Below, in pieces: positions 7,198 to 21,283 of a stretch of DNA of 32,410 bases. The DNA lies in NCBI GenBank assembly GCA_017541995.1, contig JAFXYD010000021.1, positions 1-32,410 on the forward strand, in the 5' to 3' direction. How positions within the stretch are numbered: position 1 is the first letter of the stretch; every line of letters starts with the position of its first letter. This DNA comes from Oscillospiraceae bacterium. Its GTDB lineage: Bacteria; Bacillota; Clostridia; Oscillospirales; Oscillospiraceae. A program made the position numbers and the translations under genes. The notes under the pieces are model-generated. The model saw only the letters and a list, made by a program, of their open reading frames with translations. It was not told the origin of the DNA and ran no database searches.

Positions 7198-7249
7198 GCA
7201 TATTTGGTAGCTTTGTCTATTCCGATTCTTTCGAATGAAGGACAACAAT

Positions 7250-8506
7250 ATGGAACAGATTCACAATGCATTGAACCCGAAGCGGGAGGCCTTCGACTCC
7301 CGCGTCTATCTGGCATCTCCCACCATGCACCAGGAGGAACAGCACTATATTGAAGAGGCCTTTCGCACCAACTGGGTTTCCACCGTCGGCGCCAATCTGG
7401 ACCGGATGGAGGAATTGCTCTCGGAGCTGATTGGCCGTCCCTATGCCGTGGCCCTGGCCTCCGGCACCGCGGCTCTGCACATGGCGATCCGGGCCGCTGC
7501 CGTGAAGCTCTACGGAGAGCCCGGCCCCTCCCGGCTGTCTCTGAAGGGAAAGCGGGTGTTCTGCAGCGATCTGACCTTCGCGGCCTCGGTGAACCCCGTG
7601 ATCTACGAGGGGGGCGAGCCCGTCTTTATCGATTCGGAATACGAGACCTGGAATATGGACCCGGAAGCCCTGGAGCGGGCCTTCCGTCTCTATCCCGAGG
7701 TGAAGCTGGTGGTGATGGTGCATCTCTACGGCACCCCCGCCAGGATCCGCCAGATCCGCGCCCTCTGCGACGCCCACAACGCCCTTCTCATCGAGGACGC
7801 GGCGGAGTCTCTGGGGACCGTCTACCGGGGCCGCCAGACCGGCTCCTTCGGGGATCTGGGGGTCATCAGCTTCAACGGCAACAAGATCATCACCGGCTCC
7901 TGCGGCGGCGCCCTGCTCTGCGACGACGAGCAGACCATGCGCCGGGTGCGGAAGTGGTCCACCCAGAGCCGGGAGCCCGTGGCCTGGTATCAGCACCGGG
8001 AGATTGGCTACAATTACCGGCTGAGCAATCTCATCGCCGGGGTCATCCGGGGACAGATTCCCTGGCTGGGCGAGCATAAGGCCCGCAAGACCGCCCTCTA
8101 CGAGCGCTATCGGGACGGGCTTCGGGGTCTGCCGCTGCGCATGAACCCCTACGAGCAGGAGCTGGCCGAGCCCAACCACTGGCTGTCCTGCGTTCTCATC
8201 GACCGGGAGGCCATGTGCCCCCAGCGCCGGGACGCGGAGCGGGCCGAATATACCCATACCGGCGGCAAGAGCTGCCCCACCGAGATCCTGGAGGCCATCG
8301 CGGCGCTGAACGCCGAGGGCCGTCCCATCTGGAAGCCCATGCACCTGCAGCCCGTCTACGGCGCCTACCCCTTCGTCCCCGCCGAGGACGGCCGGGACGT
8401 GGGAGCGGATCTCTTCGCCCGGGGCCTCTGTCTGCCCAGCGATATCAAGATGAAGGATTGGCAGCAGGAGCGGATCATCGAGGTGATCCGGGACTGCTTC
8501 CGTTAA
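7250..8506 (+). CDS. DegT/DnrJ/EryC1/StrS family aminotransferase (PglE/EpsN-like)
   Basis: A 418-residue fold-type I PLP enzyme that should transfer an amino group to a 4-keto nucleotide sugar. The SGTAALH segment, the IEDAAESLG segment with the cofactor-contacting Asp, and the PLP lysine in FNGNK (about Lys212) are all present. The N-terminus (YLASPTMHQEEQHYI) resembles aminotransferases of the bacillosamine or EPS pathways such as PglE and EpsN. I prefer the ATG at 7250, preceded by AAGGA at 7-base spacing, over the ATG at 7235, which has no ribosome site. First gene of the locus. The cognate 4,6-dehydratase and the N-acetyltransferase are not in the window, so the substrate is inferred. 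Confidence 0.9.
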   Translation: MEQIHNALNPKREAFDSRVYLASPTMHQEEQHYIEEAFRTNWVSTVGANLDRMEELLSELIGRPYAVALASGTAALHMAIRAAAVKLYGEPGPSRLSLKGKRVFCSDLTFAASVNPVIYEGGEPVFIDSEYETWNMDPEALERAFRLYPEVKLVVMVHLYGTPARIRQIRALCDAHNALLIEDAAESLGTVYRGRQTGSFGDLGVISFNGNKIITGSCGGALLCDDEQTMRRVRKWSTQSREPVAWYQHREIGYNYRLSNLIAGVIRGQIPWLGEHKARKTALYERYRDGLRGLPLRMNPYEQELAEPNHWLSCVLIDREAMCPQRRDAERAEYTHTGGKSCPTEILEAIAALNAEGRPIWKPMHLQPVYGAYPFVPAEDGRDVGADLFARGLCLPSDIKMKDWQQERIIEVIRDCFR

Positions 8507-8543
8507 GCAGCATGCGCCCCGGCGCGGGAAAGGAATCCAGGCT

Positions 8544-9758
8544 ATGACGCAGCACACATATTCCGGCATCAACGCGGAGCACGCGGCTCTGATCGAGCTG
8601 CTGGCCCAGCAGGTTTTCGGCGCGGCAGCGCCCGCCGCCCTGCCCGACGATACCGGATTTGTTCTGCGGGAGGCCGAACAGCAGTCTGTCTTCCCCCTGA
8701 TCTTTCCCGCCGCGGCGGCGCTGGCGCCCCGGGCCTGCGAGGCCTGGAGGCTTCGCAATCTCCGGCATATTTCCCACAATTACAATATCATCAACGCTCA
8801 TTATGAGGCGCACACGCTGCTGACGGCGGCGAAGATCCGCTATACCGTGATCAAGGGCTGCGCCTCCTCTTTTTATTATCCGGCCCCGGAGCTGCGAACC
8901 ATGGGGGACGTGGATCTCTACGTGGCCCGCCGGGATATGGACCGGGCCAGAGCGGCCTTTGAGGCCGCCGGCTACAGCGTCTCCGGCCTGGACCATCCCC
9001 ACCACTGGACCTTTGAGCGGGACGGGGTGGAGCTGGAGCTCCACTGGGTCCCCTCCGGCATCCCCGCCGCCGACGACGGCAGCATCCTGGCCATGTTTGA
9101 CGATCTGCTGGATCGCGGCGCGGTGAAAACCGTGGCCGGGCAGGAAATGGTGCTGCCCGACCCCTTCCACCACGGGCTGATTCTGCTGCTGCACACCGCA
9201 AACCACATGACCGCCGGAGGCGTGGGCCTGCGGCATCTGCTGGACTGGCTGGTGTTTGTCAACAGCATGGACGAGCAGAGCTTCCGAACCCTGCTGGAGC
9301 CCTCGCTGCGTCGGATCGGCCTCTGGCACTTTGCCTGCGCCCTGAGCGCTGTAGGAACACAGTATTTTGGCTGCGCGCCTCGCTCCTTCTGCGAGACTGT
9401 CTCGCCGGAACTGGCCCTGGGTCTGCTGCGGGATATCTTTGACGGAGGGAACTTCGGCGCAAAAAACGCCGACCGCTTGAATCAGTCCAAGCTCCTGCGA
9501 GACAATGAGTCCCGGCAGATCCGGGGTGGGGGAGAACTGGGCCATGCCCTGCGTTTTCTGAACCAGCGGGCCAGATCGCAGTATCCCCCCTCGGTGAAGC
9601 ATCCTGTCCTGCTGCCCATCGGATGGGCCAAGGTCCTGCGAAAGCGCCGCCGGGATATCAGAGCCGGGAAGCAGACCAGAAGCGGCATCCATAGCACCCT
9701 TCGAGGCGCCCGGGAACGGGAGGCCCTCTACGTGCAGCTGCGCTTGTTTGAAGAATAG
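8544..9758 (+). CDS. Nucleotidyltransferase-fold protein (NTP_transf_5 type)
   Basis: A 404-residue protein of the uncharacterised nucleotidyltransferase family (Pfam PF14907 type). The core MGDVDLYV carries the two acidic metal ligands (Asp122 and Asp124) of the polymerase-beta-like fold, preceded by VIKGCASSFYY. ELHWVPSG supplies the usual third acidic position, and a helical LLLLHTANHM segment follows. The family is frequent in capsule and EPS loci, but the reaction is not established; activation or transfer of a nucleotide onto a glycan or carrier is conceivable. AAAGGA lies 9 bases before the ATG. Composition is GC-rich like the upstream genes, in contrast to the next gene. Confidence 0.75.
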   Translation: MTQHTYSGINAEHAALIELLAQQVFGAAAPAALPDDTGFVLREAEQQSVFPLIFPAAAALAPRACEAWRLRNLRHISHNYNIINAHYEAHTLLTAAKIRYTVIKGCASSFYYPAPELRTMGDVDLYVARRDMDRARAAFEAAGYSVSGLDHPHHWTFERDGVELELHWVPSGIPAADDGSILAMFDDLLDRGAVKTVAGQEMVLPDPFHHGLILLLHTANHMTAGGVGLRHLLDWLVFVNSMDEQSFRTLLEPSLRRIGLWHFACALSAVGTQYFGCAPRSFCETVSPELALGLLRDIFDGGNFGAKNADRLNQSKLLRDNESRQIRGGGELGHALRFLNQRARSQYPPSVKHPVLLPIGWAKVLRKRRRDIRAGKQTRSGIHSTLRGAREREALYVQLRLFEE

Positions 9759-9769
9759 GGGGAATCTGT

Positions 9770-10387
9770 ATGTACGCAAAATACCTCAAACGGGTACTGG
9801 ATTTACTGATCTCTCTGTTCTCTTTGATCGTTCTCTCACCGCTGATGGTTTTTCTGACGATCCTCGGCGCCGTCAAAATGCGCGGTAATCCCTTTTTTGT
9901 TCAACGCAGACCAGGGCTTCACGAAAAGATCTTTCCTATGATCAAGTTCCGAACAATGAATTTTGCGAAGGATGAAAACGATTGTCTTCTGCCGGATAAA
10001 AAACGGATTACCGGTTATGGACGATTCCTGCGGAAAACAAGTTTAGATGAATTGCCGGAGCTGTTCAATATTCTGAAAGGAGATATGGCAATTGTCGGGC
10101 CTAGGCCCTTGTTGGTCAAATATCTCCCGCTGTATAACGAAGCGCAGAGACACCGACATGATGTTCGGCCTGGCCTTACCGGGTACGCGCAGGTTCACGG
10201 CAGAAACAACAGCTCCTGGGATGAGAGATTTCGCATGGATCTGGATTATATTGCACACATTTCATTTTTGGGGGATCTTCGTATCATTCTGAAAACCGTA
10301 AAGTCTGTTTTATCTCACAGCGGAGTCGATTCTCAGAGCGCTTCGGATGTGACAATGCTTGAGTTTACCGGGGATAATCATTCATGA
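9770..10387 (+). CDS. Undecaprenyl-phosphate phosphoglycosyl transferase, monotopic PglC-like
   Basis: A 205-residue enzyme that transfers a sugar 1-phosphate from a UDP-sugar to undecaprenyl phosphate on the inner membrane face, starting repeat-unit assembly. It has the minimal PglC layout: one N-terminal re-entrant hydrophobic helix (about residues 10-33), the KFRTMN segment, and the catalytic Asp93-Glu94 dyad in TSLDELPEL. GPRPLL and RPGLTGYAQVHGRN follow. The C-terminal DVTMLEFTG tail resembles enzymes acting on di-N-acetylbacillosamine-type sugars, which agrees with the upstream aminotransferase. The next gene starts within its stop (ATGA overlap). First gene of the low-GC block. Confidence 0.9.
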   Translation: MYAKYLKRVLDLLISLFSLIVLSPLMVFLTILGAVKMRGNPFFVQRRPGLHEKIFPMIKFRTMNFAKDENDCLLPDKKRITGYGRFLRKTSLDELPELFNILKGDMAIVGPRPLLVKYLPLYNEAQRHRHDVRPGLTGYAQVHGRNNSSWDERFRMDLDYIAHISFLGDLRIILKTVKSVLSHSGVDSQSASDVTMLEFTGDNHS

Positions 10388-11562
10388 ATACACCTTTTTT
10401 TTTGATCCGCAAGGACTTGCTGACAGAAAATGTTCGATGCTTTCGGAAGGGAATGTCAGATTGCTGGCACAACAGTCGCCTTGCCTACTCCGTGAAAACA
10501 AATTCCCTGCCCTGGGTTCTTCGTTATATGAAATCACAAGGGCTTTTGGCTGAGGTCGTTTCTGACGAGGAGTATGAGCTTGCTTTGAAATGCGGGTTTG
10601 CAGATTCAGAAATCATTTTTAACGGCCCCATCAAAACTGAACCATGGTTTCTGCGGGCTCTGCGAATGGACGCCTGGGTGAATATTGACTCAGAGCGCGA
10701 GCTGCAGTGGCTGGAACAAAGCCCGATGTCCCGCGCAAAAGTTGGCATCCGCGTTAACGTACCAACAGAACTGTTTTTGAAAGACGATATCGGATATCAG
10801 GAAGACGGTTTCCGTTTTGGATTTGATGTGGAGTCCGGCGCGTTTGAACACGCGCTTCATGTGATCTGCTCAGCCATTGACAATCCGGAGCTTGGGCTTC
10901 ATCTGCACTGCAACAGTATGACCAGAAATCCAGAGGTTTATAAGACGATTGCCGCTTATGCGGTTTCTCTGATGGACCGTTTTTCCCTACGGATTTCCTT
11001 CTTGGATATCGGAGGCGGGTTTTTCGGCGGTGTTCCTGGGAAAACAAAACCAGCGGAATACTTTTCCGTCATAGTGGAACAGCTTCGTCAGGCAAATACA
11101 AGGTCTGATTATCAGTTGATCGCTGAGCCGGGATCAGCGCTTATTGGATCCACCGTGGAGCTTCATACCTCCGTATTGGACATAAAGGATATTGAAAAAT
11201 CGAGAATTGTTACCACAGACGGCAGTCGAATCTGTATCGATCCGCTCTGGTCTAAGAAAGGATATACATACAGAACGCAGCCGATCCGGACCGAAAAGAC
11301 GGAACGTCGGCAAGTCATATGCGGTTATACCTGCATGGATCATGACAGACTGATGGTGATCGAAAACGGTCCTGCCCTTCATGTGGGAGACCAAATCATC
11401 TATGAACGGGTGGGTGCATATTCGATGACCTTTGGCGGTCCCTTTATCCGGAATTATCCGGATGTCTTTGTGCTGGATGAAAACGGCATGGAAAAGATAC
11501 GGGATCGCTTTTCTGTCGATACGTACTATAAGCTGCATACCTGTTTTTTAGACGGAGAATGA
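10384..11562 (+). CDS. PLP-dependent decarboxylase, group IV (LysA/ornithine decarboxylase fold)
   Basis: A 392-residue alanine-racemase-fold decarboxylase. The active site looks intact: PLP lysine Lys38 in AYSVKTN, the LHLHCNS segment in place of the usual HxGS, LDIGGGF for phosphate binding, IAEPGSALIG, and GYTCMDHD, which carries the Cys that completes the site across the dimer. GAYSMTFGG near the end matches the C-terminal Tyr motif. The cell would normally have its own lysA, and the position between a phosphoglycosyl transferase and an SDR/ATP-grasp pair suggests a dedicated role in making or trimming an amino-acid substituent. Relatives such as SbnH act on amino acids already joined to another molecule. 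The substrate is unknown. It is translationally coupled to the upstream gene by a 4-base overlap. Confidence 0.85.
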   Translation: MNTPFFLIRKDLLTENVRCFRKGMSDCWHNSRLAYSVKTNSLPWVLRYMKSQGLLAEVVSDEEYELALKCGFADSEIIFNGPIKTEPWFLRALRMDAWVNIDSERELQWLEQSPMSRAKVGIRVNVPTELFLKDDIGYQEDGFRFGFDVESGAFEHALHVICSAIDNPELGLHLHCNSMTRNPEVYKTIAAYAVSLMDRFSLRISFLDIGGGFFGGVPGKTKPAEYFSVIVEQLRQANTRSDYQLIAEPGSALIGSTVELHTSVLDIKDIEKSRIVTTDGSRICIDPLWSKKGYTYRTQPIRTEKTERRQVICGYTCMDHDRLMVIENGPALHVGDQIIYERVGAYSMTFGGPFIRNYPDVFVLDENGMEKIRDRFSVDTYYKLHTCFLDGE

Positions 11563-11565
11563 TTT

Positions 11566-12597
11566 ATGGACAAAAATGTTTTGGTACTAGGCGCAACTGG
11601 AAATCTGGGAGCGTATTCGGCTTTGGCGCTGCATGACGCCGGATTTGATGTAATCGCCTGCGGAAGACGTCCGCATGACAACGGTTTTTTTGAGTCCCGC
11701 GGTATGCCGTATTATTCCATTGATATCACGCAGAAGCAGGAATTCGATCGGCTCAGAGGTCTTAATATCGGCACCGTTGTGGATTTTGCGGGAGAGTTGC
11801 CTTCCCGCTGTGCCTTTAATCCGCAGATGCTGATCCGCTCCATCACGGAAGCTACGGTCAATGTTTTGGAGTATATGCGCCTGGAGAAATGTGAAAAGAT
11901 TATCTTCCCCACCACACCTTACGATCTGTTTGCGTATCATGAGACCGGGAAACCCATTGACCCAGACGCACCTCGCGGATTTCCCGCAAGCGGAGACCAC
12001 AGCGTCTATGCCATTGCGAAAAATGCAGCTGTGGATCTGATCGAGAGTTACAGGAATGAATATGGGTTCAGCCGGTTTATCCTGCGTTTTTTCACAATAT
12101 ACCAATACCATCCCAATGCCTATCATTACGCCGATGGGAAAATGCGGATGATGCCGTACAGATCCTTGATGGAACGGGCAGCGCGCGGTGAAAAAATCAG
12201 CATCTATGGCAATCCCAACCGAGTCAAGGAAATGGTCTACATCAAGGACTTTGTCAAGGTTGTGGTAAACGCCGCAAAATCCGGACGCTGCGGCGGATTT
12301 TATAATATCGGCAGTCCGGAACGTGTGACACTCGATCAAATGATCCGGGGGATCGTTGAAGTTTTTTCTCCGCCCGGACACCGGTCTGAGATCGACTACG
12401 ATTCCACAAAACCCGATACGCTGCAGTCCATGCTGGATTGGAGCAAAACGAAGCGAGAATTGGATTATCAACCCGTATATGACTTCATTTCCATGCTGCG
12501 GGACTTTAAGCATGAGATGGAGACGGAGCCTATGGCTGGACTATGGGGGCGCAGCGAGGACTACGCGCAAAGATTCGCTGAAAATGCTGAGGGTTAA
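11566..12597 (+). CDS. NAD(P)-dependent epimerase/dehydratase-like extended SDR
   Basis: A 343-residue extended short-chain dehydrogenase. The Rossmann motif GATGNLG lies at residues 9-15 and the catalytic Tyr148-x3-Lys152 in VYAIAKNAA. The usual Ser-rich segment before them appears as FPTTPYD. The C-terminal half contains EMVYIKDFVKVVV, typical of nucleotide-sugar epimerases and reductases. The likely substrate is a nucleotide-linked sugar, but whether it epimerises, dehydrates or reduces cannot be told. It starts 3 bases after the decarboxylase stop with GGAGA upstream, and the ATP-grasp gene follows 3 bases after its own stop, so the trio is one translational unit. Confidence 0.82.
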   Translation: MDKNVLVLGATGNLGAYSALALHDAGFDVIACGRRPHDNGFFESRGMPYYSIDITQKQEFDRLRGLNIGTVVDFAGELPSRCAFNPQMLIRSITEATVNVLEYMRLEKCEKIIFPTTPYDLFAYHETGKPIDPDAPRGFPASGDHSVYAIAKNAAVDLIESYRNEYGFSRFILRFFTIYQYHPNAYHYADGKMRMMPYRSLMERAARGEKISIYGNPNRVKEMVYIKDFVKVVVNAAKSGRCGGFYNIGSPERVTLDQMIRGIVEVFSPPGHRSEIDYDSTKPDTLQSMLDWSKTKRELDYQPVYDFISMLRDFKHEMETEPMAGLWGRSEDYAQRFAENAEG

Positions 12598-12600
12598 TGT

Positions 12601-13587
12601 ATGAATATTTTAATGTGCAGCGCTGGTCGCCGCTGCGAACTCATCAAGTGTATCAGAGCGTCCATGTCAACCGGGTCGATAATCGTTGCCGCTGACAACA
12701 GCCCCTATGCGCCGGCGCTATATATGGCTGACTGCGCTTACACCGTACCGCGGATCGATGATCCGAGCTACATCGCAACGCTGCTTCAGATCTGTCAAAA
12801 GGAAAAAATCGACGTAATCACTACATTCATTGACCCGGAGATCATGCTTTTAGCGGAAAACCGTGAACGTTTTGCAGCGCTTGGCGCGCTTGTACTTACC
12901 CCTTCCACAAAAACGGCGGCCCTTTGTTTTGACAAGTATCAGATGTTCCGTTTTCTGCGGGAAAAAGGAATTCGGACCCCGGAAACCTGGGGCTCCTATC
13001 AGGAAGCGGAAAACGCCATTCACACTGGCGCAGCAGCTCTGCCTGTGTTTGTGAAACCTCGCACAGGCAGCGGCAGCGTTGGCGCGAAACGAATCGAAGA
13101 CCTTGGAAGCTTAAAAGCTGCGTTTGAAGATAATCCGACCCTGATTGCCCAGGAGCTGATGACAGGCGAGGGCTGTGTTGATTTGGATGCGGATATCTAT
13201 GTCGATGCCGTTTCCGGAGAGATTGTCAGCGCCTTTACAAAACGCAAGCTGGCAACCACCATTGGTGGAGCAAATAAAACAGTTTCATTCCAAGATGAAA
13301 AACTGCTTTCGTTTATCCGGGAAATCTGCGGTTTTTTCGAATTCTGCGGACCCATTGACGCAGACTTTTTCTTTAAGAACGGCTGCTATTACCTATCTGA
13401 GATCAATCCGAGGTTTGGCGGCGCTTATCTGCACGCTTATGGCGCCGGCGTGGATTTCATACAGATGATCGAGCAAAATCTGAAAGGTAAAGCTAATAAA
13501 CCGGTTTTCAACAACTATGAAGAAGGCGTTGTTATGATGATGTATGATAGTGTTGTGATCGCAAAGCCGGAACAGATTCTCCGCTAA
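12601..13587 (+). CDS. ATP-grasp ligase, CarB-like, of the polysaccharide-locus type
   Basis: A 328-residue ATP-grasp protein. The N-terminal 100 residues form a Rossmann-like PreATP domain (MNILMCSAGRR at the start). The ATP-binding core includes VFVKPRTGSGSVGAK near residue 145, the AQELMTGEG segment, and SEINPRFGG near residue 270, whose Glu and Asn are metal ligands. Such enzymes form an amide or related bond through an acyl-phosphate; CarB-like stand-alone forms are common in capsule loci without assigned substrates. Next to a decarboxylase, an amine or amino acid partner is a reasonable guess, with a uronic acid carboxylate (see the dehydrogenase) as one possible acceptor. A 65-base gap follows before the GT4. 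Confidence 0.8.
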   Translation: MNILMCSAGRRCELIKCIRASMSTGSIIVAADNSPYAPALYMADCAYTVPRIDDPSYIATLLQICQKEKIDVITTFIDPEIMLLAENRERFAALGALVLTPSTKTAALCFDKYQMFRFLREKGIRTPETWGSYQEAENAIHTGAAALPVFVKPRTGSGSVGAKRIEDLGSLKAAFEDNPTLIAQELMTGEGCVDLDADIYVDAVSGEIVSAFTKRKLATTIGGANKTVSFQDEKLLSFIREICGFFEFCGPIDADFFFKNGCYYLSEINPRFGGAYLHAYGAGVDFIQMIEQNLKGKANKPVFNNYEEGVVMMMYDSVVIAKPEQILR

Positions 13588-13652
13588 GAAGAAAAAGAGG
13601 CAAACACGAGGGTGCCTACGAGGCCCAAGAATCAAAAGAACAGCAGGGGACA

Positions 13653-14777
13653 ATGAAGGAATTATCAGGAACAAACAAAAGAAAGATCGTCATTTTGACA
13701 AATAACGCCTCCGGCCTAATTTCTTTCCGGGAGGAACTTTTGCGGAAGCTGGCGGAATCAGACAACGTTCTAGTTGTTCTGCCTCCGAGTGAATACACTG
13801 CGGTCATTGAACGCACAGGATGCCATGTGTACCCTGTAGACCTGGACCGAAGGGGCATGAATCCGATTCACGATCTGAAGCTTTACAGAGCATATCGACA
13901 GATTCTAAAGAGGGAACATCCGGACGCTGTAATTACTTATACGGTAAAGCCAAATGTTTACGGCGGCAGAGCTTGCGCCGCCCTGAAGATCCCTTATCTT
14001 TGCAATATCACCGGTTTGGGAACGGCGATTGAAAACGGCGGATTGCTCAGTCATTTGACTCTGCGACTGTACAGAATCGGCCTGAAACACGCGGCCTGTG
14101 TTTTTTTCCAAAATGAAGATAATCTCTCGTTTTTCAGACAGCGCCGGGTTGTCAGCGGAAAGACAAGACTGATCCCCGGATCCGGCGTAAACTTAGAGCA
14201 CCATCGCTTTGAAGAATATCCATCAGAAGAAGACGGTTATCGCTTTCTGTTTGTAGGAAGAGTGATGCGGGATAAGGGCGTAAGAGAACTGCTTGAAGCA
14301 TTTCGAACGATACATTCTTCGCATTTGAATGTAATGCTGCATATGATCGGCAGCTTTGACGAGGATTATCAGGCGTTGATTAAACAGGCCGAGGCAGATG
14401 GGTTCCTGCGTTATCACGGCATACAAAAGGATGTACACCGATTCTACCAATCATGCCATTGTGTTGTTCTGCCCAGCTATCATGAAGGTATGGCCAATGT
14501 TCTTTTGGAAGCAGCCTCAACAGGACGGCCTGTTATTGCGACCAGGGTTCCGGGCTGCAAGGAGACCTTTGATGAAGACTGTACAGGCTACGGCTGTGAA
14601 GCAAAAAACACCAATAGCCTTGTGGATGCTTTGGAACATTTTTTAAGCGGCTCAGAGGACATACACCGGAAGATGGGAAAAAAGGCCAGAGATAAAATGT
14701 GCAGGGAGTTTAATCGGGAGATTGTAATTCGCACATATCTGGAAGAACTGGAAAATGCGGAGTATGGATCAAAATGA
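13653..14777 (+). CDS. Glycosyltransferase family 4 (PglA/EpsD-like)
   Basis: A 374-residue GT-B enzyme that should add a sugar from an NDP donor to the lipid-linked first sugar at the cytosolic membrane face. The N-terminal acceptor domain has ITYTVKPNVYGG, a segment typical of PglA/EpsD-like enzymes that follow a PglC-type first step. The C-terminal donor domain has FLFVGRVMRDKGVREL and the retaining-GT motif SYHEGMANVLLEA with the E-x7-E acidic pair. It is the only conventional glycosyltransferase between the phosphoglycosyl transferase and the flippase. The next start follows directly, so coupling is likely. Donor sugar unknown; GalNAc, GalNAcA or Glc are possible. Confidence 0.88.
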   Translation: MKELSGTNKRKIVILTNNASGLISFREELLRKLAESDNVLVVLPPSEYTAVIERTGCHVYPVDLDRRGMNPIHDLKLYRAYRQILKREHPDAVITYTVKPNVYGGRACAALKIPYLCNITGLGTAIENGGLLSHLTLRLYRIGLKHAACVFFQNEDNLSFFRQRRVVSGKTRLIPGSGVNLEHHRFEEYPSEEDGYRFLFVGRVMRDKGVRELLEAFRTIHSSHLNVMLHMIGSFDEDYQALIKQAEADGFLRYHGIQKDVHRFYQSCHCVVLPSYHEGMANVLLEAASTGRPVIATRVPGCKETFDEDCTGYGCEAKNTNSLVDALEHFLSGSEDIHRKMGKKARDKMCREFNREIVIRTYLEELENAEYGSK

Positions 14778-14789
14778 ATGGTGAAATCA

Positions 14790-16100
14790 ATGAAAATATA
14801 TGAAGATATCATAAACGGAAAGACGAAACTATCTCTGATTGGTCTTGGCTATGTAGGAATGCCGATTGCGGTGGCTTACGCAAAAAAGGTACAAGTGATC
14901 GGCTTCGATCTCAATGAAAGAAAGATCGAACTGTACCGGTCGGGGATCGATCCCACCAGAGAGGTGGGCGACGAGGCCATTCGGGCCACAAGGGTGGAGT
15001 TTACCGCGGACGAGACAAAGCTCCGGGAGGCGAAATTCCACATCGTGGCGGTTCCCACGCCTGTAAACGAGGATCATACTCCGGACCTGGGCCCCGTGGA
15101 GAGCGCCAGCCGCATCCTGGGCCGCAATCTGCAAAAGGGCTCCGTGGTGGTCTACGAGTCCACGGTCTATCCCGGGGTCACGGAGGAGATCTGCGTTCCC
15201 ATTCTGGAACGGGAATCCGGCCTCCGCTGCGGGACGGACTTCAAGGTGGGCTACTCTCCCGAGCGCATCAACCCCGGCGACAAGCTGCATCGGCTGGAGA
15301 ACATCCGCAAGATCGTCTCCGGTATGGACGAGGAGACCCTAAACTGCGTGGCGAAGGTCTACGAGCTGGTGGTGGAGGCCGGGGTACACCGGGCCGAGAG
15401 CATCAAGGTGGCGGAGGCCGCCAAGGTCATTGAGAACAGCCAGCGGGACATCAACATCGCCTTTATGAACGAGCTGTCCATCATCTTCAACCGGATGGGC
15501 ATCGACACCAAATCCGTGCTGGAGGCCGCCGGTACCAAGTGGAACTTTTTGAAGTTCTATCCCGGCCTGGTGGGGGGCCACTGCATCGGCGTGGATCCCT
15601 ACTATCTCACCTACAAGGCGGAGATGCTGGGCTATCACAGCCAGGTGATCCTGGCGGGCCGCCGCATCAACGACGACATGGGCCGCTACGTGGCGGAAAA
15701 CTGCGTCAAGGCTCTCATTGCGGCGGACAAGCCGGTCAAGCAGGCCCGGGTGGCGATTCTGGGCTTCACCTTCAAGGAAAACTGCCCCGACACCCGCAAC
15801 AGCAAGGTGTTTGACGTGGTGCGGGAGCTGCGGGAGTACGGCATCGAGCCGCTGATCTACGATCCCGTGGCGGACGCCGACGAGGCCCGCCGCATCTACG
15901 GCGTGGAGTTCTGCTTCCCCGATGAACTGCGGGAGCTGGAGGCGCTGATCCTGGCCGTGGCCCACAGAGAATTCAGCGGTCTGAGCCTGGAGAAGCTGGC
16001 GGCCATGTACCGCCCCGGTCAGCCGGTGCTGCTGGACGTGAAGGGAATGCTGGACCGGAAGGCTTATGAGGCAGCCGGCTGGCGCTATTGGAGATTGTAA
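14790..16100 (+). CDS. UDP-N-acetylhexosamine 6-dehydrogenase (WbpO/TviB-like)
   Basis: A 436-residue NAD-dependent enzyme that oxidises C6 of a UDP-HexNAc in two steps to the uronic acid. It has LIGLGYVGMP for NAD, the PTPVNEDHTPDLGPV segment, the YESTVYPGVTEE segment, and the catalytic Cys265 in GGHCIGVDPYY. The C-terminal GFTFKENCPDTRNSK is typical of WbpO/TviB and WecC-type enzymes. With the 4-epimerase next door the product should be UDP-GalNAcA. I chose the ATG at 14790 (GGTGA just upstream, family-like MKIYEDIIN); 14778 is an alternative that abuts the previous stop. The first 145 or so bases are AT-rich and the rest GC-rich, a mosaic pattern discussed in the findings. Confidence 0.9.
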   Translation: MKIYEDIINGKTKLSLIGLGYVGMPIAVAYAKKVQVIGFDLNERKIELYRSGIDPTREVGDEAIRATRVEFTADETKLREAKFHIVAVPTPVNEDHTPDLGPVESASRILGRNLQKGSVVVYESTVYPGVTEEICVPILERESGLRCGTDFKVGYSPERINPGDKLHRLENIRKIVSGMDEETLNCVAKVYELVVEAGVHRAESIKVAEAAKVIENSQRDINIAFMNELSIIFNRMGIDTKSVLEAAGTKWNFLKFYPGLVGGHCIGVDPYYLTYKAEMLGYHSQVILAGRRINDDMGRYVAENCVKALIAADKPVKQARVAILGFTFKENCPDTRNSKVFDVVRELREYGIEPLIYDPVADADEARRIYGVEFCFPDELRELEALILAVAHREFSGLSLEKLAAMYRPGQPVLLDVKGMLDRKAYEAAGWRYWRL

Positions 16101-16122
16101 AAACAGAATCGAGGATTCCATC

Positions 16123-17100
16123 ATGGGATATGAAACCGTCAGATTTCCGGAAAACAGCCTGTTTTTGGTGACAGGCGGCGCCGGCTTTATCGGCTCCAAC
16201 CTCTGTGAGGCCATTCTGAAGCTGGGCTGCCGGGTCCGCTGCCTGGACGATCTGTCCACGGGCAAGCGGGAGAACGTGGAGCTGTTTTCGGAGCAGCCGA
16301 ATTACAGCTTCCTCCAGGGGGACGTGAAGGACCTGGAGACCTGTGTGAAGGCCTGCGAGGGAGTGGACTACGTGCTCCACCAGGCGGCCTGGGGCTCCGT
16401 GCCCCGCTCCATCGAGATGCCCCTGTTCTACTGCGCCAACAACGTCATGGGGACGCTGAACATGCTGGAGGCCGCCCGGCGGCAGGGGGTAAAGAAGTTT
16501 GTCTACGCCTCCTCCAGCTCCGTCTACGGCGACGAGCCCGTCCTGCCCAAGCGGGAGGGGAGAGAGGGGAATCTGCTGAGCCCCTACGCCGTCAGCAAGC
16601 GCTGCGACGAGGAATGGGCCAAGCAGTACACCCGCCACTACGGCCTGGATACCTACGGCCTGCGCTACTTCAACGTCTTTGGCCGCCGCCAGGATCCCAA
16701 CGGGGCCTACGCCGCGGTGATTCCCCGCTTTCTGCGGCAGCTGCTCCACGGGGAGCGGCCCACCATCCACGGGGACGGCCGCCAGAGCCGGGACTTTACC
16801 TACGTTGAGAACGTCATCGAGGCCAATCTCAAGGCCTGTCTGGCCCCTCACGAGGCGGCGGGGGAGGCCTACAACGTGGCCTACGGCGGCAGGGAATACC
16901 TGCTGGATATCTACTACGGACTGACAAAAGCCCTGGGCGTGGAAATCGAGCCCATCTTCGGGCCCGAGCGCCCCGGGGACATCAAGCACAGCAACGCGGA
17001 CATCAGCAAGGCCAGAAGGCTGCTGGGCTACGAGCCGGATTGGAGCTTTGACCGGGGCATCCGGGAGGCCATTGCCTGGTATAAGGAGAATCTGAAATGA
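16123..17100 (+). CDS. UDP-N-acetylglucosamine 4-epimerase (WbpP/TviC-like)
   Basis: A 325-residue extended SDR that interconverts UDP-GlcNAc and UDP-GalNAc, or the corresponding uronates. GGAGFIGSN binds NAD, ASSSSVYGD carries the catalytic Ser/Thr position, and Tyr155-x3-Lys159 lies in SPYAVSKR. The ARRQGVKKFVYASS and YFNVFGRRQDP segments are typical of the WbpP branch, which prefers N-acetylated substrates. GAGG 8 bases upstream fixes the ATG at 16123; an earlier in-frame ATG inside the dehydrogenase gene lacks such support. It pairs with the dehydrogenase to supply UDP-GalNAcA and overlaps the next gene by 4 bases. Confidence 0.9.
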   Translation: MGYETVRFPENSLFLVTGGAGFIGSNLCEAILKLGCRVRCLDDLSTGKRENVELFSEQPNYSFLQGDVKDLETCVKACEGVDYVLHQAAWGSVPRSIEMPLFYCANNVMGTLNMLEAARRQGVKKFVYASSSSVYGDEPVLPKREGREGNLLSPYAVSKRCDEEWAKQYTRHYGLDTYGLRYFNVFGRRQDPNGAYAAVIPRFLRQLLHGERPTIHGDGRQSRDFTYVENVIEANLKACLAPHEAAGEAYNVAYGGREYLLDIYYGLTKALGVEIEPIFGPERPGDIKHSNADISKARRLLGYEPDWSFDRGIREAIAWYKENLK

Positions 17101-18464
17101 GCGGCAGGCTGGAACGGATCTACGATCACGCGCCCATCTGGATGCAGAATCTCATGTGCTCCGTATCGGGCTGGAGGAAATACCGACGCAGATACGGCGG
17201 GGCGTACTGGAAGGCCCGGAGCTTCTGCGAGGAATTTGACGCCTGGCCCCTGGAGCGCCAGCTGGAGTACCAGAGCGGCGCCATGCGGGAGCTGATCCGC
17301 TACGCCGCGGCGCACAGCGAGTTTTACAGGGCGCTCTACAAGGACGTGGACCTGGACAGCATCCGGACGACTGAGGACTTGAAAAAACTTCCCATTGTGG
17401 ACAAGGAAATGCTCCGGGCCAATCTGGACCGGATTTATACCCTCCGCCGGACGGCTGAGAACACCTCCAACACCGGCGGCACCACCGGCAAATCCCTGAC
17501 GGTACTGTCTAAAGACGACGATAACCAGACTCGTATGGCGGTGCTGGACCATTTCAAGTCCAGAGTCGGCTTTGAAAACCTGAAGATGCGCCGGGCGACC
17601 TTCAACGGCAAGCACATCATCCCGCCCGGCCAGAAGCGTCATGTCTACTGGAGATACAATAAGCCCTGCAAGCAGATGATCTACTCCTCCTTCGACCTGA
17701 CGGAGGAGAAGCTGGGCTATTACGTCAAGAGTCTGAATCGCTTTCAGCCCCAGGCCATCGACGGCTTTTTCACCTCCATCTGCGACGTAGCCCGGTATAT
17801 CGAGCGTCACAGGCTGACGCTCAGCTTCCGGCCTGTGGCTGTGTTTCCCACCTCCGAGACCCTGACGGCCGAGGGGCGGGCTCTGATTGAGCGGGTTTTC
17901 GGCTGCAAGGTCTACGACCAGTACGCCTCCAGCGAGGGGGCTCCCTTCGTGACAGAGTGCCCCTGCCAGCGGCTACACGTGGAGCTGAACACCGGCGTCT
18001 TTGAAATCCAGGAGAACGGAGAGATCCTGGTCACCAGCTTTTCCACCCACGGGACCCCCTTGATCCGATACGCCATCGGGGACGTCATGGTGCCCGGTAA
18101 GCCCGGGGAGAGCTGCCCCTGCGGTCTGCATGGTCCGCTGATCCGGGAGATCCGGGGCAGGCGGCTGGACTATCTGCTCCGCAGCGACGGGGCGAAAATC
18201 AACGCGGGAAACGTCTCCAATCTTTTGAAGTACATGCCGAATAACGTGATCCGGGCCCAGTTCCGCCAGCAGAAGCTGGGGGAGCTGCGGATCCTGCTGG
18301 AACTGGCGGAGGGCGGCCTGGATGAAGCGGGCCGCCGGGAGATCCTCTCCGAGTGCCGCCACACCCTGGGGCCCGATACCCGGGTCAGCATCGAAGTCGT
18401 CCCGGAGATCCCCCGGGAGAAGAGCGGGAAATTCCGCATGATCGTCAACGAGGTAAGGATTTGA
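17097..18464 (+). CDS. CapK/PaaK-like adenylate-forming enzyme
   Basis: A 455-residue member of the phenylacetate-CoA ligase branch of the ANL superfamily. NTGGTTGKSLTV (about residue 122) is the AMP/phosphate-binding loop. YDQYASSEGAPF supplies the A5 motif, and IRYAIGDV the ribose-binding Asp. A C-terminal domain ends in REKSGKFRMI with the likely catalytic Lys. It should activate a carboxylate as an adenylate. CapK-like members are widespread in capsule and EPS loci without a proven substrate; acyl or amino-acyl addition to the glycan is the usual suggestion. A Cys-rich segment (GESCPCGLHG) may bind zinc. The start overlaps the epimerase stop (ATGA). Confidence 0.83.
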   Translation: MSGRLERIYDHAPIWMQNLMCSVSGWRKYRRRYGGAYWKARSFCEEFDAWPLERQLEYQSGAMRELIRYAAAHSEFYRALYKDVDLDSIRTTEDLKKLPIVDKEMLRANLDRIYTLRRTAENTSNTGGTTGKSLTVLSKDDDNQTRMAVLDHFKSRVGFENLKMRRATFNGKHIIPPGQKRHVYWRYNKPCKQMIYSSFDLTEEKLGYYVKSLNRFQPQAIDGFFTSICDVARYIERHRLTLSFRPVAVFPTSETLTAEGRALIERVFGCKVYDQYASSEGAPFVTECPCQRLHVELNTGVFEIQENGEILVTSFSTHGTPLIRYAIGDVMVPGKPGESCPCGLHGPLIREIRGRRLDYLLRSDGAKINAGNVSNLLKYMPNNVIRAQFRQQKLGELRILLELAEGGLDEAGRREILSECRHTLGPDTRVSIEVVPEIPREKSGKFRMIVNEVRI

Positions 18465-18497
18465 GCTTGCCTGCATTTTACATCAGGAGCAATGCGC

Positions 18498-19748
18498 ATG
18501 CAGCTGCAAAAACAAGAAACCACGCAGCGGATCTGTCTATGGGATTGGATCCTGGTAGTTGGCGTGGTGCTTTCCCCCATGAATGAATTCCGAATCGGCA
18601 AGGTAGGACCGGGAGAAGCGCTGGTCCTGCTTTGGTGTCTTCGCTATGTGAGCGGACTGTTCACCTTGAGCCTGAAGGAAATGCTGCCCCGTTTCTGGCT
18701 TACTTTTCTGATTGTGATTTCCCTGGGAACCGGCTTCTGCGTGATTTTTTATCCCAGTGAATCCACGCCGGGCGGTCTGGCAACCTATCTGTTTTTTGCT
18801 TTTATCAGCTGCTCCATTATGACAGGGCTTTCCGAGCGCTCCTCCCGTCAAATCCGGCGTATGCTCTATTCCATCGGAATTCTGACCGCTTTGTGGTATA
18901 CCTATCTCTATTATTACAGCCTTAATATCTCTTACTATTTCCACGATGCGGAGCTCTGGTATCGCGGCGTCCGCTTTTCCGGCGGCGCCAACAATCCTCA
19001 CCAGCTGGCGACCCTCATGGGCTCCGCGATTTTTCTCAACATCATTCACCTGGCGGATCGGGATTGCAGTCTGATGGATAGAATTCTGCCCTTGATCTGC
19101 ACCGGCCTTTGCTTTTACGTTTCCCTGCAAATCAAATCCTCCACCCTGGTGGTGACGACGCTGGTGACCTTCGCGGCGTTTTTGTATTATCTGAGTCTGA
19201 AAAAATTGAGCACCAGATCTCAGAAGTGGATCGTGACCTCGGTATTGGTGATTGTATTTTCGGTGTTGATCGGAGTGTTCCGGGAAAAGCTCTTTGATTA
19301 CGTCTTCGATTTTGTTGAGAGCGACGCCAACGGCCTGGGCCGCTTTGAGATATTCGCCTCGATCGGCGATACCCTGAGGAAAAACTGGCTCTTCGGCTTG
19401 GGCCCCGGGAACCACGGTCTGGATGGTACCATTGAGTACCACAATGCCTATCTGGAGATTCTGGCTATGGGCGGTATCATCGGATTTGTGTTTTTTTTCC
19501 TGTTCTCGGTCCGGCTCTTTTCGCTGCTGATGACAGATCCCTCCATCCTCTTTGCCGTGATTCCCCTCTATGCCTACGGAATGGGCGGCTTCTCTATGCG
19601 GCGGCTGAGCTTCTGGGTGGTGGTATCCGTCGCCGCCGCGTATTCTGTTCGGAAAAAACAGGAAATGGCCGCTGACAGCGGCGCCCCTGCGCCGGAGCAG
19701 GCTGCGGGGCTGCCGGGAAACAAACGCGGCCTGTATTTGAAAACATGA
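18498..19748 (+). CDS. Wzy/O-antigen-ligase-like polysaccharide polymerase
   Basis: A 416-residue integral membrane protein with about ten to twelve hydrophobic segments. The best family mark is YHNAYLEILAMGGIIGF near residue 315, which fits the Wzy_C/O-antigen ligase pattern of a His-Asn pair before a Gly-rich membrane helix. A long extracytoplasmic loop precedes it. In a Wzx/Wzy pathway it would link repeat units on the outer face of the membrane. AGGAG is 8 bases before the ATG at 18498 and only 2 before the ATG at 18492, so I choose 18498. GC is lower than its neighbours, as is common for polymerase genes. It overlaps the flippase gene by 4 bases. Confidence 0.82.
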   Translation: MQLQKQETTQRICLWDWILVVGVVLSPMNEFRIGKVGPGEALVLLWCLRYVSGLFTLSLKEMLPRFWLTFLIVISLGTGFCVIFYPSESTPGGLATYLFFAFISCSIMTGLSERSSRQIRRMLYSIGILTALWYTYLYYYSLNISYYFHDAELWYRGVRFSGGANNPHQLATLMGSAIFLNIIHLADRDCSLMDRILPLICTGLCFYVSLQIKSSTLVVTTLVTFAAFLYYLSLKKLSTRSQKWIVTSVLVIVFSVLIGVFREKLFDYVFDFVESDANGLGRFEIFASIGDTLRKNWLFGLGPGNHGLDGTIEYHNAYLEILAMGGIIGFVFFFLFSVRLFSLLMTDPSILFAVIPLYAYGMGGFSMRRLSFWVVVSVAAAYSVRKKQEMAADSGAPAPEQAAGLPGNKRGLYLKT

Positions 19749-21283
19749 ACAATAAGCTGGTTAAAAACACGATGATCGTGCTGGCAGTCTCCATTCTGGC
19801 CAAGCTGCTGGCCTACCTGTGGGAGGCCATGCTGGCTGCCTGGCTGGGAGCCGGCGACGAGGCGGACGCCCTGTCCATGACCACCAGTGTTTTCAATATT
19901 CTATATCCAATCCTGGATCTGGGCATCTGGAAGGTTTTTCTTCCTGCCTATCAATCCAAACGCAGCGCGGGTCTGCGGCAGGACGCGGAGAAGATTGCCA
20001 ACGGCGCGCTTTCCTTCTTCCTGCTGCTCTCCGTGGCCCTGGTGGGTTTTCTGATTCTCTGCGCCGAGCCCATCATCGGGCTCCTGGCCCCCGGCTTTCC
20101 GGCCAAGAAGCAGAGCCTCACGGTGGAATTCCTGCGGCTCTCCGCTCCGGCCTATCTGCTGATGTCCGCCGCCTCCATCCTGGGAGCTATCCTCCAATGC
20201 CACGATCGCTTTCTGGGCAGTCAGCTGCGGGAAATCGGCACCCATCTTTCCAAAATCCTCTTTGTGCTGATCTGCTTCCGCTTCCTGGGTGTTTGGGCCG
20301 CCGTGGCCGCCATTGTGGTGGGCAGCGTGTTCCGGGTTCTGATCCAGCTGCCCTTCTTCAACTGGGGCTGGCGTTGGAGGCCCGGTCTGGATCTCAAGGA
20401 CAGGGACATGCGGGCCATGATCCGGGGTTTGCCCTCTGTAGCGCTCACCGCCGCCATCCTGCACATCAACAGCCTGGTGGATCGGATCTTTGCCTCCGGC
20501 GCCCGGGGCGGGGCGGTGGCCTGTTTGAACTACGGCAACCGCCTCATGACGGTATTCAGCGGGCTCATCTCCACCGCCGTCAGCACCTCCACCTATCCCG
20601 TGATGATCGATCACATTGCCAATGGCCGGAGGGAGGAGCTGCGGGAGCTTTTGGTGAAGATCATCCACGCCCTGTGTTATCTGATTATCCCCATCACCGT
20701 CTACTGCGCGATGTTCTCCCGGCAGCTGGTCACCGTGGCCTTCCAGCGAGGGGAATTTGACGAGGCGGCCACCCTCCTCACCGCCGGAATCTTTGCAGGC
20801 TACTGTGTGGGGATGCTCTTTACGGCCCTGGAAACCGTCTTTTCCAATGTATTCTACGGCTACGGCGACACCAGAACCACCCTGGTCATCAGCTCCGTGA
20901 TGATTCTGGTGAACGTGGGCCTGGACTTTCTCTTTTACGCCCTCTGGGGCGTCCCAGGTCTGGCGCTGGCCACTTCCGCGGCGGCTATTCTGGGGCTTGG
21001 GCTGCGGCTGATCCTGCTGCGGCGCTATATCCGCCTGCCCTGGGGGCGTCTTCTGCGGGAAATCGCCGTTGTCGCCGGCAGCACGGGCCTTGCCGTGCTG
21101 GCCGCCTGGCTCCTCTGCCAGCGGCTGACGGCGCTTCCGGCCCTGCCGGCGCTGCTGCTGAGCCTGGCGGTATCGGCGGCAATCTACCTGCCTATGACCC
21201 TGCTGCTTCGTTCTGAGGCAATCCGGTCCATCATTCAATTTGGGAAAAAGAAGCTGCACCGCGCATCCAACCGCAAGGGCTGA
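19745..21283 (+). CDS. MurJ/MviN-like lipid-linked saccharide flippase (Wzx role)
   Basis: A 512-residue MOP-superfamily transporter with about fourteen predicted spans. The N-terminal region (KLLAYLWEAMLAAWLGAG, then FLPAYQSKR) follows the MurJ/MviN pattern rather than classical Wzx. In this locus it most likely flips the undecaprenyl-linked repeat unit; a second copy of the lipid II flippase is the alternative. The start overlaps the polymerase stop (ATGA), so the two are coupled. It is the last clear polysaccharide gene. No chain-length regulator or tyrosine kinase pair is present nearby. Confidence 0.87.
   Translation: MNNKLVKNTMIVLAVSILAKLLAYLWEAMLAAWLGAGDEADALSMTTSVFNILYPILDLGIWKVFLPAYQSKRSAGLRQDAEKIANGALSFFLLLSVALVGFLILCAEPIIGLLAPGFPAKKQSLTVEFLRLSAPAYLLMSAASILGAILQCHDRFLGSQLREIGTHLSKILFVLICFRFLGVWAAVAAIVVGSVFRVLIQLPFFNWGWRWRPGLDLKDRDMRAMIRGLPSVALTAAILHINSLVDRIFASGARGGAVACLNYGNRLMTVFSGLISTAVSTSTYPVMIDHIANGRREELRELLVKIIHALCYLIIPITVYCAMFSRQLVTVAFQRGEFDEAATLLTAGIFAGYCVGMLFTALETVFSNVFYGYGDTRTTLVISSVMILVNVGLDFLFYALWGVPGLALATSAAAILGLGLRLILLRRYIRLPWGRLLREIAVVAGSTGLAVLAAWLLCQRLTALPALPALLLSLAVSAAIYLPMTLLLRSEAIRSIIQFGKKKLHRASNRKG

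Follow-up and report, generated by a model that had tools for sequence, protein, structure and literature searches.

A candidate decarboxylase and ATP-grasp module at the first sugar of a polysaccharide cassette from an Oscillospiraceae bacterium

Genes of the cassette and the decarboxylase family

A 32,410-nucleotide stretch from an Oscillospiraceae bacterium (contig JAFXYD010000021.1 of assembly GCA_017541995.1; hereafter the window) carries a polysaccharide cassette in which genes for a decarboxylase dependent on pyridoxal phosphate (PLP; the protein is called DEC), an extended short-chain dehydrogenase/reductase (SDR) and an ATP-grasp ligase (ATPG) follow a gene for a PglC-type phosphoglycosyl transferase (PGT), and the possible joint function of these genes is considered here (Table 1). 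The DEC, SDR and ATPG open reading frames all lie on the plus strand and are separated by two intergenic gaps of exactly 3 bases each, and their coordinates and family matches bear out the trio described in an earlier, sequence-only reading of this DNA. That reading treated the trio as one translational unit beginning at 10384, and the tight packing stands, but the PGT stop at 10387 overlaps the DEC start by 4 bases. The closely packed unit therefore has at least four genes, from the PGT onward, and conserved gene order (see below) also brings in the DegT-type aminotransferase.

Table 1. Features of the polysaccharide cassette in the window
Feature	Position	Strand	Family match
DegT/DnrJ/EryC1/StrS aminotransferase, PglE-like; putative maker of a uridine diphosphate (UDP)-4-amino sugar	7235..8506	+	PF01041, 241 bits
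Uncharacterised nucleotidyltransferase	8544-9758		PF14907, 121 bits
PglC-type PGT; loads undecaprenyl phosphate, starts repeat unit	9770..10387	+	PF02397, 204.7 bits
DEC, fold-type III (alanine racemase fold) PLP decarboxylase, 392 aa	10384..11562	+	Orn_Arg_deC_N, 94.8 bits
SDR, extended, nucleoside diphosphate (NDP)-sugar type, optional member, 343 aa	11566..12597	+	PF01370 Epimerase, 97.6 bits
ATPG, ATP-grasp carboxylate-amine ligase, 328 aa	12601..13587	+	PylC-like_N and ATP-grasp_3; NF009406
GT4 glycosyltransferase, 3' of the module in several cassettes with and without DEC	13653..14777	+	
TviB-like UDP-N-acetylglucosamine 6-dehydrogenase, neighbour outside the core	14778..16100	+	NF011729, 484 bits (below cut-off, 592)
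TviC-like C4-epimerase, cassette neighbour; alternative start 16066	16111..17100	+	NF011728, 297.2 bits (below cut-off, 760)
Coenzyme A (CoA)-ligase-like protein	17097-18464		PaaK-related by weak NCBIfam matches; no Pfam match
Wzy_C protein and MurJ-like protein	downstream of ATPG		

When compared with solved chains, the window DegT protein scored 217.6 bits against 1o61 and 215.0 against 4ztc, both of which we take to be Campylobacter PglE, as well as 187.6 against 7b0m, 167.9 against perosamine synthetase and 108.9 against QdtB. The PGT had PglC (8g1n, 226.0 bits) as its best match, compared with 127.6 bits for the best WbaP-type chain, and a PglF-type gene is found elsewhere in the window genome, on contig C116, as a 726-aa frame that matches the broad family Polysacc_synt_2 at 423 bits. 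ATPG matched NF009406 ('carbamoyl phosphate synthase-like') at 404.7 bits, above its cut-off of 271, and its residues Lys152, Glu267 and Asn269, which are invariant in an alignment of 23 sequences, presumably have the catalytic role that they have in other ATP-grasp enzymes. For the SDR, sequence search returned only generic NDP-sugar epimerases and dehydratases, and its Tyr148 and Lys152 are invariant in 11 aligned orthologues (64-77% identity).

The family membership of DEC is less conventional, as it scored below the cut-offs for LysA (TIGR01048; 134 bits versus 297.9), FigC/FslC (NF041039; 124.5 versus 500) and the exosortase-A-associated decarboxylase (TIGR03099; 63.4 versus 478.45). In a profile search, FigC ranked first (182.1 bits), 41 bits ahead of the best LysA (140.6), with BtrK at 98.1; in an AlphaFold model (predicted local distance difference test 88.5, predicted template modelling score 0.88), diaminopimelate decarboxylase, FigC and BtrK were tied in the structural ranking. 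A free LysA function for DEC was considered and rejected, since DEC itself fails the LysA cut-off. The window genome contains no LysA above that cut-off, an absence that says little because the assembly is 78% complete; a second, weak TIGR01048 match (33.6 bits) is present at C13:9027-10091.

The active site of DEC had been called complete, and this is true of Lys38, the stacking His175, the Gly loop, Glu248 and Cys317, but Ser251 stands in place of the EPGR Arg that binds the PLP phosphate, and Met318 occupies the acidic position after the catalytic Cys. Both departures are general among the 46 full-length DEC relatives, as the phosphate Arg is replaced in every one of them (by Ser, Thr, Val, Met, Asn or Ala) and the residue after Cys317 is always Met, Ile or Leu. 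The Schiff-base Lys38, Cys317 and Arg181 are kept in all 46, over long branches, and the Gly loop is intact in 43; a single LysA-like control (L040) has EPGR and Cys-Glu and is without Arg181.

In the window protein, the segment C317-M318-D319-H320 shows the FigC-type Met after Cys with a His two positions on, and Cys-Met-x-His-Asp is found in 22 of 23 sequences from the closest relatives (clade A, defined below). In FigC, Met355 takes the place of an acidic residue to which other members bind the side-chain amine, and a contact of His357 with the citryl part has been modelled (PMC7857480). DEC is not simply a FigC, because FigC has retained its phosphate Arg290 (PMC7857480) and DEC has not. 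Decarboxylation of conjugated amino acids is common to FigC, SbnH, AcsE, MccE and BtrK (PMC7857480), and we infer that DEC is of this conjugate-acting kind.

A conserved block with modular members

Comparative analysis places DEC within a recurrent gene set. With the window DEC as query, the species-genome collection yielded 23 loci, a lower bound because the scan worked through exact short patterns. At the order level, 11 of 394 genomes had a match with E <= 1e-20, the window's own among them. The other ten include G224 (52% identity) and G372 (41%), each with a close ATPG beside DEC, and G142, which has a distant one, whereas five LysA-like loci (L007-L011, two of them also analysed with wide flanks as L040 and L041) contained no partner gene when searched with the same queries. 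Clade A comprises the window, L012-L034 and L035 (from G224), or 25 loci. ATPG comes next after DEC, or after the SDR, at all 24 testable clade-A loci (the L012 contig ends first), and the DEC-ATPG adjacency is not due to chance, because it holds in 24 of 24 close relatives while no partners are found at the five LysA-like loci.

The PGT gene is directly 5' of DEC at 24 of the 25 loci, a DegT gene lies within 7 kb upstream at 21, and a PglF-type gene lies within 12 kb upstream at 15, several contigs being short. As judged from these gene orders, the conserved unit is [PglF] - PglE-type aminotransferase - PglC-type PGT - DEC - [SDR] - ATP-grasp. The trio itself is not the conserved unit, as the SDR is missing from 12 of the 25 loci, DEC is missing from related cassettes, and PGT and PglE belong to the block; ATPG after DEC recurs at every testable locus and the SDR at 13. 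Two clade-A loci have a damaged DEC gene, which is split in two frames at L033 (577-1777) and reduced at L034 to a remnant of residues 309-386 (10001-10240), and L034 retains both SDR and ATPG.

Among 137 non-core proteins at 17 loci, glycosyltransferases are the commonest neighbours (24 Glycos_transf_1 and 17 Glycos_transf_2). A PglD-type acetyltransferase was considered as a constant partner and rejected, with Hexapep found in 3 of these 137 plus-strand neighbours and PglD_N not among the 25 commonest families shown for them. Ten neighbours examined by hand included one PglD-type protein, at L016, where two tandem PGT genes (8045-10004) occur and one PglF and one PglE were found; PglD accompanies the first PGT and DEC-SDR-ATPG the second. 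This layout is as expected if the module is an alternative to PglD, and L016 possibly encodes two alternative first sugars.

Cassettes that lack DEC were found by searching with ATPG in the family of genome G534 (f28), in which 10 of 265 genomes drawn had ATPG at E <= 1e-110. A PGT gene lies within 4.5 kb of ATPG in all ten, DegT and PglF genes are also present at the nine loci with a long enough contig (L103 ends at the PGT), and DEC is part of the cassette at only one (L105). Several of these loci have the order PglF-DegT-PGT-ATPG-GT4-TviB-TviC, which is the window order minus DEC and SDR. On a tree of 45 ATPG sequences, 5 changes are required for the state 'no DEC' and 9 for 'DEC with SDR', of which well-supported branches force at least 3 and at least 6, respectively, with L034 and its DEC remnant labelled as having DEC; among the loci in this tree, no SDR orthologue was found near ATPG without at least a DEC remnant. 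Sampling for the tree was uneven, since most loci with DEC were found via DEC and those without it via ATPG. From the f28 cassettes and the interleaved tree, ATPG is the constant partner of PglE and PglC, DEC is added to this core, and the SDR is added in turn to DEC.

When the phylum was searched with ATPG, 18 of 398 genomes had a match, counting that of the window, and 13 of the other 17 were examined. Seven of these 13 loci have a PGT gene within 4.5 kb; the six without one have ATP-grasp proteins 29-33% identical to the window ATPG, two of them on short contigs, and at L081, where the PGT is present, the ATPG is also only 29% identical. At L141 and L143, distant SDR relatives (35-39%) adjoin another ATP-grasp type (AG414, 28-29%) and DEC was not found, so the link between SDR and ATP-grasp may be older than the link to DEC. 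In addition, two ATP-grasp genes of the same broad family follow one PGT gene at L100 (7329-11425), with two other genes between them.

Members of the block are also found as natural fusions. Each is a single open frame free of internal stops: PglC and ATPG are joined at L099 (545 aa), PglC and DEC at L031 (595 aa) and L134 (671 aa, the linker being long, acidic and proline-containing), and a cytidine monophosphate (CMP)-nonulosonate synthetase domain is joined to DEC in two genera (L067, 642 aa; L133, 640 aa). The fusions at L031 and L067 were confirmed by Pfam and the others by BLAST to cassette proteins; the genomes are uncurated, and misassembly could account for the fusion at L099 or L031.

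A second amino-sugar setting emerged from a DEC profile search of f28, in which 15 of 265 genomes had 16 matches at E <= 1e-60 (surroundings cover 15 of the 16, G991 excepted). One clade of DEC relatives (support 100/100; L067, L129, L133, L135, L136, L137 and L140) has NeuB at six of its seven loci (the seventh begins at the edge of a contig) and, at all seven, an ATP-grasp of the type defined from L067 (AG400), which suggests that these loci may produce aminoacylated and decarboxylated nonulosonic acids. Overall, an ATP-grasp gene is present in the locus for 41 of 47 testable DEC relatives (LysA and two viral contigs excluded). These are all 24 testable loci of clade A, all 7 of the nonulosonate clade, 8 of 10 from an intermediate group and 2 of 6 from a distant one. 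The other four distant loci (L037, L038, L069 and L071) encode a protein like HpcH/HpaI aldolases and another of the Aminotran_4 family in place of the ATP-grasp, which was not found by the queries used; three of these four have a PGT. Searches of plasmid and phage records, at E <= 1e-20 and 1e-15, returned nothing. Two viral contigs, L145 and L146, contain a DEC relative (27-28% identity) with an ATP-grasp directly after it (30% identical to the one at L070).

A proposed pathway and its alternatives

These observations support the earlier suggestion of a dedicated glycan-decoration pathway in which the ATP-grasp ligase forms an amide, and of the options then put forward they favour the trimming of an already attached amino acid, as SbnH does. 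We consider it probable, by a small measure, that the cassette encodes a bacillosamine-type (Pgl/EpsCNM-EpsL) start of a surface polysaccharide in which PglD has been replaced by an amino-acylation and trimming module. From the gene content we infer the sugar, the acyl donor, the order of steps and the role of the SDR as follows. The PglF-type dehydratase, encoded elsewhere in the window genome, and the PglE-type aminotransferase would supply UDP-2-acetamido-4-amino-2,4,6-trideoxyhexose, and ATPG would join a carboxylate of an amino acid to the 4-amine of this sugar. The amide must use a second carboxylate, probably that of the side chain, because DEC needs the alpha-carboxylate to be kept on the coupled residue; the simplest donor would be a dicarboxylic amino acid coupled through its side chain, for example as gamma-glutamyl or beta-aspartyl. 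DEC would then strip the alpha-carboxylate from the attached residue, so that the amide would carry a free primary amine at its end (gamma-glutamyl giving 4-aminobutanoyl, beta-aspartyl giving beta-alanyl), the optional SDR would adjust the sugar or its substituent, and PglC would load the finished sugar onto undecaprenyl phosphate.

A wider proposal, which we hold tentatively and with a little less than even confidence, is that DEC represents an undescribed family of decarboxylases that act, together with ATP-grasp partners, on amino acids bound to nucleotide-activated amino sugars, serving both UDP-4-amino sugars (with PglC) and nonulosonic acids (with NeuA, NeuB or PseG) and yielding surface sugars with a free amine, such as an N-(4-aminobutanoyl) group.

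Three observations make ligation before decarboxylation the preferred order: the interleaved ATPG tree, which suggests a single donor, the fusion of DEC to enzymes acting on nucleotide sugars, and the likeness of the DEC loop to the FigC loop. In the reverse order, DEC would convert a free dicarboxylic amino acid to beta-alanine, gamma-aminobutyrate or a similar amine and the ATP-grasp would couple this product to the 4-amine. Such a scheme would explain this gene set too and would lead to an identical product, and the Campylobacter jejuni capsule route makes its amine before ligation. However, it would need different substrates for ATP-grasps that are interleaved in the tree regardless of whether DEC accompanies them (at least three forced changes), the fusions of DEC to PGT or CMP-nonulosonate synthetase at four loci suit a sugar-bound substrate, and the Cys-Met pair matches the one in FigC, a conjugate-acting enzyme, all of which make the reverse order unlikely.

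The idea that the ATP-grasp couples a free amine made by DEC to a uronic acid carboxylate, for example that of N-acetylgalactosaminuronic acid, had been raised from the sequence alone and now appears improbable. TviB- and TviC-like genes are present in the window, a TviB-type gene is also found at L013, L014 and L016, and amides of amines with uronates are known from the C. jejuni capsule. Yet a TviB-type dehydrogenase occurs at only 4 of 25 clade-A loci, and at 3 of the 18 with 10 kb on both sides, the commonest and steadiest partners of ATPG (PglE and PglC) make and load an amino sugar and so supply a sugar amine rather than an acid, DEC is dispensable while the ATP-grasp stays, and PglC is itself fused to the ATP-grasp at L099.

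Several points weigh against ligation followed by decarboxylation on the sugar. The three arguments for the order of steps (tree, fusions and loop) fall short of proof, and five of the seven close cassettes that lack DEC are in genomes that have DEC elsewhere. In addition, at L021 of Alkalibacterium sp. AK22 (10001-12199), a DEC-ATPG pair is found without a PGT or other cassette gene within 10 kb, as judged by the queries used; the earlier expectation that the trio is confined to glycan loci thus has one exception, which concerns the DEC/ATP-grasp pair and not the trio.

The L021 pair, lying apart from PGT genes, is what would be expected if DEC and the ATP-grasp made a small soluble metabolite unrelated to polysaccharide, for example a beta-alanyl or gamma-aminobutyryl dipeptide, but the PGT gene that joins them at 24 of 25 loci, the prevalence of glycosyltransferases among their neighbours, and the fusions to PGT and CMP-nonulosonate synthetase render this quite improbable. 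Least probable of all is that DEC is a catalytically degenerate LysA paralogue and that only the ATP-grasp matters, since the universal loss of the PLP-phosphate Arg and the persistence of SDR and ATPG beside the DEC remnant at L034 are outweighed by the retention of Lys38, Cys317 and Arg181 in every full-length relative over long branches and by the repeated fusion of the whole domain.

Relation to known systems and other genes of the cassette

The proposed module shares features with several described pathways. PglB2, which combines a PGT with an ATP-grasp domain, makes glyceramido-acetamido-trideoxyhexose (PMC11130364). As in this Neisseria pathway, compared here by its published description, a UDP-4-amino sugar is the predicted supply, the unit includes a PglE-type aminotransferase and a PglC-type PGT, and an ATP-grasp stands in place of a PglD-type acetyltransferase and can be fused to the PGT (L099). 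The two differ in that no decarboxylase or SDR is described for PglB2, its acyl group is glyceramido, and the ATP-grasp here is usually a separate gene: in the window it lies in the same packed unit as the PGT, two genes after the PGT-DEC overlap. B. subtilis EpsCNM and EpsL use N,N'-diacetylbacillosamine (PMC10653937). Like the block described here, EpsCNM-EpsL and C. jejuni PglFEDC, which makes the same sugar, comprise a dehydratase, an aminotransferase and a PglC-type PGT, but they have an acetyltransferase where DEC-[SDR]-ATP-grasp is found in these cassettes.

With FigC/FslC, the N-citrylornithine decarboxylase, and with SbnH, AcsE and MccE, DEC shares its fold, Cys-Met pair, catalytic-loop His and, as proposed here, the logic of acting on conjugated amino acids. 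It is 27% identical to FigC by structural alignment, lacks the PLP-phosphate Arg, differs in the specificity-helix segment (DPLW.K..Y) and is seen in no siderophore setting. BtrJ is the ATP-grasp ligase of the butirosin pathway, which thus also pairs such a ligase with a fold-III decarboxylase, BtrK. The 4-aminobutanoyl group of butirosin arises through BtrK while bound to a carrier protein (PMC7857480). Butirosin assembly works on an acyl carrier protein, whereas no carrier-protein domain was detected among the ten cassette proteins scanned (9770-21283). The TIGR03099 decarboxylase resembles DEC in its fold type III and has an exosortase setting, but DEC is far below the cut-off for that family. 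This decarboxylase is also found in an exopolysaccharide setting.

Amino sugars that are N-acylated with amino acids are known from other clostridia. A C. difficile ATP-grasp mutant has a flagellin glycan without its peptidylamido-Fuc3N end, the precise role of the enzyme being left open by the authors (PMC5207246), and C. botulinum has a nonulosonate acylated as N-methyl-glutam-4-yl, as cited in the C. difficile flagellin paper (PMC5207245). The type B flagellin glycan of C. difficile and Leg5GluNMe7Ac of C. botulinum are built on other sugars, and the word 'decarboxylase' is absent from the available text of both reports (PMC5207246; PMC5207245). The last gene of the sfm cluster in Shewanella is ATP-grasp-like, with no decarboxylase in that text (PMC3765264), and the text of a report on nonulosonate and flagellin loci contains neither 'ATP-grasp' nor 'decarboxylase' (PMC13317340).

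Acylation by a PGT with an ATP-grasp is therefore already known from PglB2, and what appears to be new is the added decarboxylase, its recurrence in two amino-sugar systems, and the fusions. Among titles and abstract starts of the open-licence literature, which are weak evidence of absence, no description of a decarboxylase with an ATP-grasp in a polysaccharide or nonulosonate pathway was found. Such operons may be mentioned in the amidoligase survey that Iyer and others published in 2009 or in a 2021 network study of monotopic PGTs.

If the proposal is correct, a ligate-then-decarboxylate step would join the vocabulary of bacterial surface sugars, and the genes would provide a signature to predict free-amine (cationic) first sugars in Firmicutes polysaccharides, those of gut species included. 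Genes that are otherwise scored only as distant diaminopimelate decarboxylases, or as 'carbamoyl phosphate synthase-like', would gain a function as well. Cassettes that contain TviB- and TviC-like genes could combine a free amine with a uronate in one repeat, that is, a zwitterionic polysaccharide, a class with immune effects of interest.

Among the remaining genes of the window cassette, the TviB-like protein matched the NDP-sugar dehydrogenase model TIGR03026 at 388.2 bits, above its cut-off of 189.8, and the CoA-ligase-like protein could be a second acyl-activating enzyme. The PF14907 gene separates the PglE-type from the PglC-type gene in the window; in many other clade-A loci, that pair is about 0.1 kb apart.

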